DNA of 64,000 nucleotides from Armatimonadota bacterium. Lineage in GTDB: Bacteria > Sysuimicrobiota > Sysuimicrobiia > Sysuimicrobiales > Sysuimicrobiaceae. The position numbers and the translations under genes are program-made. Under the pieces are notes generated by a model. That model did no database searches. It had not been told where the DNA came from and worked only from the letters and a program-made list of their open reading frames with translations. The first letter of the stretch is position 1. Each line of letters begins with the position of its first letter. The DNA is taken from the NCBI GenBank assembly GCA_031432545.1, contig JAVKGX010000002.1, positions 1-64,000 on the forward strand, given 5' to 3'. Shown here piece after piece: positions 4,832 to 8,552 of the stretch.

Positions 4832-4860
4832 ATCGTACCGCTGCTGTTTGACATCGCCAA
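4832..4860 (-). promoter_or_regulatory. Promoter of the GT39 operon
   Basis: Reading the minus strand, TTGGCG (4860-4855) and TACGAT (4837-4832) are separated by exactly 17 bases. The expected start lies near 4825, next to the GTG at 4823. It overlaps the plus-strand promoter of the small peptide unit. Confidence 0.5.
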
Positions 4861-4877
4861 GGCGCCTGTGGTAGCGT
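4848..4877 (+). promoter_or_regulatory. Promoter of the 14-aa peptide unit
   Basis: A perfect -35 box TTGACA (4848-4853) is followed after 17-18 bases by GTAGCG/TAGCGT, a poor -10. The -35 box lies inside the spacer of the opposing GT39 promoter, so the two could exclude each other. Confidence 0.45.
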
Positions 4878-4922
4878 GCGCGCTAGACCAAGGTGGTCAA
4901 CGGGAAAGGAGGTGGTGCCCAC

Positions 4923-4967
4923 TTGAGTAGAACACCCATCCCGGCCCACCTGGAGGGCGAAGTCTAG
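4923..4967 (+). CDS. Predicted 14-aa peptide MSRTPIPAHLEGEV
   Basis: This is a self-contained mini-gene. A strong Shine-Dalgarno (AAAGGAGG, 4905-4912) lies 10 bases before a TTG start. Fourteen codons run to TAG, and a textbook intrinsic terminator begins nine bases later. A -35/-10 pair lies about 50 bases upstream, so the transcript would be only about 120 nt. I do not recognise the peptide; it has no membrane segment and carries two prolines, one His and an acidic C-terminus. It could be a free peptide, a leader whose translation matters, or a small RNA with a chance ORF. The unusually strong ribosome site argues for translation. It sits between the GT39 operon and tRNA-Met/tilS. Confidence 0.5.
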   Translation: MSRTPIPAHLEGEV

Positions 4968-4975
4968 CAAGGCAA

Positions 4976-5001
4976 GTCCCGGCGGTGGGCCGGGACTTTT
5001 T
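4976..5001 (+). terminator. Intrinsic terminator of the peptide unit
   Basis: An 8-bp GC-rich stem (GTCCCGGC / GCCGGGAC) with a GGTGG loop is followed by five Ts (4997-5001). It ends the short peptide transcript before the tRNA gene. Confidence 0.85.
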
Positions 5002-5039
5002 GTTCGCCGCGCGGGTCGGCCCGCCACCGCCGACTCCTG

Positions 5040-5045
5040 TATACT
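5040..5045 (+). promoter_or_regulatory. -10 box upstream of tRNA-Met
   Basis: TATACT lies 9 bases before the tRNA, at the right place to start transcription just ahead of it. No good -35 box is seen at 16-18 bases, so only the -10 is supported. Confidence 0.4.
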
Positions 5046-5054
5046 GTCTGTGTC

Positions 5055-5131
5055 GGCGGCGTAGCTCAGTTGGTCAGAGCACGCGGTTCATACCCGCGGT
5101 GTCGTGGGTTCGAATCCCTCCGCCGCCACCA
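5055..5131 (+). tRNA. tRNA-Met (CAT), elongator type
   Basis: A full cloverleaf of 77 nt with encoded CCA. The acceptor GGCGGCG pairs with CGCCGCC, the anticodon stem is CGCGG/CCGCG, and the loop is TTCATAC with CAT at 5089-5091. The G1-C72 pair and the absence of a GGG/CCC anticodon stem rule out initiator tRNA. The loop and acceptor resemble elongator tRNA-Met rather than tRNA-Ile(CAU), whose loop is normally CTCATAA. tilS, whose product modifies tRNA-Ile(CAU), starts 14 bases downstream. Confidence 0.93.
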
Positions 5132-5145
5132 CGACGGCCACGGTC

Positions 5146-6552
5146 ATGCTCCCGCCCAGGACGGTCATTCGCCGGATCCAGCGCGACGTCGAACGTCACG
5201 GCCTGTTCGGTCCCGAAACCCGCATCCTCGTGGCCTGCTCGGGCGGACGGGATTCTGTGGCGCTGCTGCTGGCGCTGCGCGGATTTGGGGCGCCCTGGCG
5301 CCTAAGCCTCGAAGTAGGACACGTCCACCACGGCCTGCGGAAATCCGCGGACGCCGACGCCGCCTTCGTGCAGGGTCTGTGCCGCGACCTCGGGATGCCG
5401 GTGCACGTCGAGCGTGTGGAGGGGCTGGACGGCGCCGGCCTCGAAGCCCGCGCCCGCCAGGCGCGCTACGAGGCGTTGAGACGGATGGCGGAACGAGCCG
5501 GCGCGCCACTGGTGGCCACGGGCCACACGATGGACGACCAGGCCGAGACGGTCCTGCTCAGGTTGCTGCGGGGAGCGGGTCCCGGTGCGCTGGCGGGGAT
5601 CCTGCCCCGGCGCACGCTGGGCGGGGGCGTCGACGTCGTTCGCCCCCTGCTGTGGACGCGGCGAGCCGACCTGGAGGTGCTGGTGCGGGATGCCGGGGTC
5701 GGCTGGCGCGAGGACGAAACGAACCGCGACTTGCGGATCGCCCGCAACCGCATCCGCCACCGCGTGCTGCCGGTGCTCGCCGAAGAAAACCCCCGCGTCG
5801 TCGAGACGCTGGCTCACGTCGCCGAGATCGTAAGAGAGGAGGAAACCGAGTGGGTGGAGCGAACGCTGCGAGCGCTCGCCGCCGTCGCGCAAGCGGAGGG
5901 CGGGAGCTGGAGAATCTCGCTGCATCGGTTTCGGGAGCTGCCCGTCGCGCTGCAGCGGCGCGTGCTCCGCGAGGTTGCCGCGCGCGCGGGAAACGAAGAC
6001 GGGATTTCCTTCGTTCAGTTGGAAAACGTACGGTGGCAGGCCCTGCGCGGTCGGACCGGCAGCGAGACGACCCTGCCGGGCGGCCTGCGGGCGCGGCGCA
6101 CGTCGGAGGAGCTCGTCATCGGCACACCGTCGGAGGAAGAACTGCCCGCGGTCGAGGTGTGTTTGCCGGTGCCCGGGCGCGTGCTGTCGACCGAACTCGG
6201 GTTGCTGGTGGAGACCTCGGTCGAGCCGGCGGACGCGCCGCGGGAACCGCGCGGCACATGGGAGGTCGAGCTCGACCCGGAGGTCGCAGCGTCCGGGCTG
6301 GTGCTGCGGAACCGCCGGCCCGGCGACCGCCTGAACCTTCCGGGTGTGCGCGGCGGGCGCAAGGTATCGGACGTGCTCACGGACGCGAAGGTACCGCGCT
6401 GGGAACGGGGCCGCGTCGGCGTCATCGCGGCGCCGAGCGGGGAGGTGCTGTGGGTCATCGGGCACCGGGCGGCCGCCCGGGCACGGCCGCGGGTGGGCTC
6501 AAAGCGGCGGGTGCGGGTTCGCGCGTGGCCGTTGATCGCATCCAACGGCTGA
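5146..6552 (+). CDS. tilS: tRNA(Ile)-lysidine synthase
   Basis: TilS converts C34 of tRNA-Ile(CAU) to lysidine using ATP and lysine, so that the tRNA reads AUA and is charged with Ile. At 468 aa it has the usual three-part build. The N-terminal PP-loop ATPase domain has SGGRDS at residues 32-37 and the HHGLR and GHTMDDQAETVLLRLLRGAG signatures. A middle domain follows, then the C-terminal TilS domain (LRNRRPGDRLNLPG, KVSDVLTDAKVP, WVIGH). The ATG 14 bases after the tRNA-Met gene was chosen because the frame upstream runs through the tRNA. The two are probably co-transcribed. ftsH follows, a common tilS neighbour in bacteria. Confidence 0.93.
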   Translation: MLPPRTVIRRIQRDVERHGLFGPETRILVACSGGRDSVALLLALRGFGAPWRLSLEVGHVHHGLRKSADADAAFVQGLCRDLGMPVHVERVEGLDGAGLEARARQARYEALRRMAERAGAPLVATGHTMDDQAETVLLRLLRGAGPGALAGILPRRTLGGGVDVVRPLLWTRRADLEVLVRDAGVGWREDETNRDLRIARNRIRHRVLPVLAEENPRVVETLAHVAEIVREEETEWVERTLRALAAVAQAEGGSWRISLHRFRELPVALQRRVLREVAARAGNEDGISFVQLENVRWQALRGRTGSETTLPGGLRARRTSEELVIGTPSEEELPAVEVCLPVPGRVLSTELGLLVETSVEPADAPREPRGTWEVELDPEVAASGLVLRNRRPGDRLNLPGVRGGRKVSDVLTDAKVPRWERGRVGVIAAPSGEVLWVIGHRAAARARPRVGSKRRVRVRAWPLIASNG

Positions 6553-6576
6553 GCGGAGACCGCGCCGGCCGGATGC

Positions 6577-6582
6577 TATACT
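6577..6582 (+). promoter_or_regulatory. Candidate -10 box before ftsH
   Basis: TATACT lies 54 bases before the ftsH start, in the short gap after tilS. No convincing -35 hexamer was found at the right distance. Confidence 0.3.
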
Positions 6583-6635
6583 GATCGCGCCGGCCGCGTC
6601 TTCCGGTGGGACCGGGCGATCGAGGAGGTCGGTTC

Positions 6636-8552
<1,917 letters not shown>

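Follow-up and report, generated by a model that had tools for sequence, protein, structure and literature searches.

What does a stretch of bacterial DNA accomplish when it carries a promoter, an exceptionally strong ribosome binding site, a reading frame of 14 codons, a terminator and little else? Such a unit lies near the start of the 64,000-nucleotide stretch of DNA analyzed here (hereafter "the window"), which comes from an Armatimonadota bacterium. An initial annotation of the locus described a stand-alone mini-gene and proposed that it could be either a new conserved micropeptide gene or a translated regulatory RNA. We therefore asked which parts of the unit are conserved, whether similar units exist elsewhere, and whether the peptide, the RNA or the act of translation is the more probable object of selection.

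Layout and conservation of the mini-gene

The component parts named at the outset, namely a TTGACA −35 element, a strong Shine-Dalgarno (SD) sequence, a TTG start, the peptide, a TAG stop and a terminator, are all present in the sequence. The locus is organized as follows.

4848 to 4877, forward strand: promoter read from the sequence and conserved in relatives, with −35 element TTGACA (4848-4853), an 18-nt spacer and −10 element TAGCGT (4872-4877)
4904 to 4916, forward strand: SD1, GAAAGGAGGTGGT, complementary to the 16S rRNA 3′ tail over 13 positions and invariant in all relatives
4923 to 4967, forward strand: micro-ORF MSRTPIPAHLEGEV, with TTG start (4923-4925), 14 codons and TAG stop (4965-4967); start, length, frame and stop are kept in six genomes
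4940 to 4950, forward strand: ORF segment CCCGGCCCACC, which resembles an anti-SD sequence; CCCACC is kept in all six
4952 to 4956, forward strand: SD2-like GGAGG located 8 nt before the stop, invariant in six sequences; counterpart of the GAGG that precedes the stop by 9-11 nt in members of the wider class discussed below
4974 to 5003, forward strand: intrinsic terminator AAGTCCCGGC-GGTGG-GCCGGGACTT plus T tract, with the stem at 4974-4998
5041 to 5046, forward strand: TATACT, a probable separate −10 element for the tRNA gene that follows, conserved at this place in L002 and L004-L006
5055 to 5131, forward strand: tRNA-Met (CAU) of the elongator type (G1-C72), reached by transcription of the mini-gene only if the terminator is read through

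Promoter and terminator together predict a transcript of ∼115-117 nt, from ∼4885 to ∼5001, in which no other gene fits. The −10 element is a weak match to the consensus, and a promoter scan of the window did not flag the TTGACA/TAGCGT promoter. TTTGACA and TA...TG are nevertheless invariant across the six aligned sequences, and the terminator core AGTCCCGGCGGTGGGCCGGGACT is identical in the window and in the four relatives whose contigs reach it.

The most distinctive element is SD1, which can form 13 contiguous base pairs, one of them G·U, with the 16S rRNA 3′ end of the same genome (GGATCACCTCCTTTCT). The two strands of the window together contain 862 distinct SD-like sites, and SD1 is the strongest complement of the 16S tail among them (−25.9 kcal/mol, compared with −21.2 kcal/mol for the runner-up). 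The combination of SD and TTGAGTA occurs once in the genome, and a reversed control pattern does not occur.

A DNA search of 100 genomes located the element in six genomes representing two families of the window's order. All six keep the promoter, SD, TTG start, frame and stop, and the aligned sequences also keep TTGAGT, the ORF length and GGAGG. Insertions and deletions are located just 5′ of the start and just 3′ of the stop, and none falls within the ORF. In other families of the order, the tRNA-Met locus carries the tRNA without the mini-gene, and the element is likewise missing from close sister genomes (g2, most of the phylum). Two local features were seen upstream: a G+C-rich extra hairpin 5′ of the SD in the sister genus (L003-L006), and GGTGG(C/T)CA ∼5 nt before the SD, which both the window (4892-4899) and L003-L006 retain and which reads GATGGCCA in L002.

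Comparison of the aligned genomes establishes a near-perfect SD, a weak TTG start and a short indel-free frame, flanked by an apparent promoter and terminator of its own. The description of the locus as a stand-alone mini-gene is upheld by this conservation, by the lack of room for anything else in the transcript, and by the position of a tRNA-Met gene with its own TATACT after the terminator.

A wider class of micro-ORF RNAs

Scanning 85k genomes with the pattern SD-N{3,9}-TTGAGTA yielded 53 stretches, ∼46 of which are micro-ORFs of the same design, from Actinomycetota, Latescibacterota, Sumerlaeota, Planctomycetota, Leptospiraceae of the Spirochaetota, Lindowbacteria and others. They share a near-perfect SD, an NTG start, 10-16 codons, an SD-like segment (SD2) before the stop, and their own terminator. 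Searches that ignore the start codon provided 58 distinct members, each with an SD and with an SD2 followed 9-11 nt later by a stop. An NTG codon is in frame with the stop in 54 of the 58; the other two frames give 0 and 2, and shuffling predicts 5.4. Many Latescibacterota members are closely related, so the count is not one of independent events. The in-frame starts are TTG (24), ATG (21) and GTG (9), and NTG-AGT recurs in these members even though the start codon was not used to select them. In the remaining four (L071, L080, L085 and L090), the sole in-frame start is CTG, CTG, ATT or ATC; these are codons normally discriminated against by IF3. SD2 is read as EVA, GGG or RGG depending on the lineage, and therefore its nucleotides, not its residues, are kept.

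Folding suggests that, in the wider class, the ORF end GGTGGCTG pairs with a CAGnCCACC segment immediately ahead of the terminator. This end of the ORF supplies the 5′ strand of a conserved, covarying helix: beyond the invariant core, it pairs with its own partners at −6.6 kcal/mol and with swapped partners at −3.8 ± 0.26 kcal/mol, where the 3′ segment was anchored on an AAUCC-like motif followed by CACC, an anchor blind to the pairs tested. A second hairpin, P1, which joins the 3′ part of SD1 to the ORF, is only weakly supported; pairing is kept (own −6.69 versus swapped −6.12), but the column-wise covariation count is no higher than in shuffles. Genes downstream of members are in the same orientation in 45 cases and convergent in 36. 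Their orientation is random and they belong to unrelated Pfam families, which rules out a fixed downstream gene and favors a stand-alone RNA over a leader.

Shorter forms exist in other lineages. L177 (G573), L183 (G709) and L140 (G607) have a near-perfect SD and a GTG, TTG or ATT micro-ORF whose end or stop lies within a local hairpin, which in L177 is GGTGCGC-AACTTA-GCGCACC. L085-L087, from the Actinomycetota search, are very short members with 10 codons and a GGGSS end; a tRNA lies shortly downstream of L087. Weak matches to R1, a wider-class model built without Armatimonadota sequences, include L143, L145, L146, L147, L153 and L154, which resemble ordinary gene starts and were excluded from the members. 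Apparent viral matches were likewise rejected: four read as sequence from inside a protein gene and one as an ordinary gene start.

The design of the window mini-gene is not wholly new, as its actinobacterial relatives are catalogued in Rfam as the non-coding small RNA Ms_IGR-5 (RF02471). Members from elsewhere match RF02471 weakly or not at all. Like the window RNA, Ms_IGR-5 has a near-perfect SD (GAAAGGAGGTGGTCC), an NTG micro-ORF of ∼12-14 codons, an SD-like segment before the stop and its own terminator; it has no fixed downstream gene. Ms_IGR-5 differs in that its ORF end (GAGGTGGC) pairs with a CAGnCCACC segment on the 3′ side, beside the terminator, and in its AAUCC motif; neither feature is found in the shorter window RNA. 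Expression of Ms_IGR-5 has been observed in Streptomyces (PMC8079986, PMC8780764) and in M. smegmatis (PMC10454040), and in M. abscessus and M. smegmatis its homologues carry ribosome footprints (PMC4974804). However, the 6C and F6 RNAs are footprinted in the same mycobacterial data (PMC4974804), so that footprints by themselves are no proof of translation.

A second Rfam family, the Caulobacter small RNA CC2171 (RF01867), also resembles the window element. The head of its Rfam consensus line, GAAAGGAGGUGAUCCA-GUG-UCU, is a perfect 16S complement followed by a weak start and a Ser second codon, whereas its 3′ structure differs from that of the window RNA. When the CC2171 consensus is set against L034:3816-3980, the same perfect-SD and GUG-UCU head is seen as in Ms_IGR-5. 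Judging from these consensus sequences, two families annotated as non-coding may share a translated head. In the literature collection searched, we found no paper on the function of Ms_IGR-5 or on CC2171.

How does the window copy relate to this class? It does carry a near-perfect SD and an NTG micro-ORF within the range of 10-16 codons. An Rfam scan of the window at gathering and relaxed thresholds returned two tRNAs and otherwise chance matches. The RF02471 model has no match in positions 4840-5060 even at E ≤ 10. The RF01867 model likewise leaves the region unmatched at E ≤ 10, and the region is not among its matches in the genome; the only genomic CC2171 match (contig C5, 26 bits, below the cut-off) apparently lies inside a coding gene and was rejected as chance. 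R1 matches the window with 18.4 bits (E 0.0017 in 78 kb), essentially through the SD alone, and a whole-genome R1 search does not find the window copy. The window sequence also lacks the EVAxx end and a helix to the 3′ segment.

These last observations are what would be expected if an unrelated, strongly translated mini-gene of the clade had come to resemble the wider class by convergence, a reading that concerns ancestry rather than mechanism. Against convergence, the TTG-AGT start context, the ORF length, GGAGG just before the stop and the stand-alone arrangement are common to both, and the start context in members picked without it recurs as noted above. We regard convergence as a serious possibility, though somewhat short of an even one. 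We therefore treat the window copy as either a minimal variant or an analogue of the wider class, not a proven member.

Attenuation, peptide and non-coding alternatives

The segment CCCGGCCCACC within the ORF has two predicted partners, SD1 (−16.1 kcal/mol) and the terminator loop plus 3′ arm (−25.8 kcal/mol), and tRNA-Met is the next gene in all five loci that reach it (the window and four relatives). In the window, positions 5055-8552 hold tRNA-Met(CAU), then directly tilS (PP-loop and TilS_C), then ftsH. The mini-gene might thus be a ribosome-controlled attenuator of tRNA-Met, in which a ribosome at SD1 and the start codon that is not elongating would free the ORF segment to invade the terminator and permit read-through, whereas full translation or the absence of a ribosome would result in termination. 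Partition-function folding of the window and L002 agrees with this scheme, giving terminator probabilities of 0.94 and 0.90 for the free RNA, 0.01 and 0.00 when the initiation region is blocked, and 1.0 with a ribosome at the stop. However, the free-state value hinges on the stretch folded, as a slightly shorter one gave 0.13, and the mutually exclusive terminator and antiterminator predicted in silico for the window and L002 are not seen in L004-L006 of the sister genus, where a longer terminator stem has a probability of ∼1 in every state. Moreover, the tRNA has its own conserved TATACT and is of the elongator type, the ORF has no internal Met codon, and the wider class has no fixed downstream gene. 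Attenuation of tRNA-Met is therefore unlikely.

A gene for a functional 14-residue micropeptide would account for the conservation of frame, length, TTG start and stop across the six genomes, as well as for the recurrence of the residues P-A-H-L-E. The third-position changes that the initial annotation proposed to look for are present at codon 7, which varies among CCG, CCA and CCC. Over the ORF, however, pS/pN is only 1.4, meaning that amino-acid changes occur at nearly the same per-site frequency as silent ones, in what is a weak test on a small sample of six sequences and 13 codons. For comparison, pS/pN is 1.2 in a frame other than that of the ORF and 1.2 in a Latescibacterota set. The recurring residues also sit in the segment that has RNA pairing partners, and the peptide is free to vary among wider-class members, in which SD2 is read in different frames. 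Thus the frame is kept, but the aligned codons give no clear sign of purifying selection on the peptide. The proposal of a conserved micropeptide is not supported by these substitution patterns, and we consider it quite improbable.

Alternatively, the RNA could be non-coding, its SD-like run serving only for antisense or other base pairing and its ORF being there by chance. This would fit the annotation of both Rfam families as non-coding small RNAs, but is very unlikely given the in-frame starts of the wider class and the indel-free ORF of the window's clade. The other half of the original proposal, a translated regulatory RNA, gains support from the conserved frame, start, stop, promoter and terminator.

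A possible role in ribosome capture and its relation to known systems

We give about an even chance to the view that the locus produces a small RNA that stands alone, ends at its own terminator and works through a translated micro-ORF, likely by capturing ribosomes. In such an RNA, 30S subunits would bind very tightly through the 13-bp SD pairing, and initiation at the weak start codon would be slow. The short frame would then be translated, with its end doubling as an RNA-pairing element, so that ribosome occupancy might select the 3′ fold. For the window copy, the competing pairings would be those of CCCGGCCCACC with SD1 or the terminator, and for the wider class the pairing of the ORF end with the segment beside the terminator. 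The peptide would be a by-product, as the act of translation seems to be what matters. The likely role would be ribosome capture that senses or buffers free ribosomes or initiation capacity, with RNA conformation as the output.

A broader and more doubtful proposal is that Ms_IGR-5, CC2171 and the window element form one old, pan-bacterial class of ribosome-capturing RNAs. Each would have an SD of full length and a weak start codon, and translation of its micro-ORF, whatever the peptide encoded, would refold the RNA and so report or buffer free ribosome or initiation capacity. If this is true, some RNAs that are now listed as non-coding in major bacterial groups are in reality mRNAs, each carrying a conserved micro-ORF with an irrelevant peptide, and the window mini-gene is explained without invoking a new peptide. 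The proposal would also offer a directly testable handle on Ms_IGR-5, a widely conserved and unexplained small RNA, and on the readout of ribosome availability.

Two known types of system provide useful comparisons. Leader-peptide attenuators of the trp, his and erm type resemble the window unit in placing a short ORF with a strong SD ahead of a terminator that can be drawn into alternative pairings. The window unit, however, precedes a tRNA with its own probable promoter, and the sister genus lacks the alternative pairing. Translation-titrating minigenes such as lambda bar also combine a strong SD with a very short ORF, and could tie up translation components. The window unit shares these two features but differs in that toxicity is not indicated, and in that it is 14 codons long, chromosomal, conserved and equipped with its own terminator.
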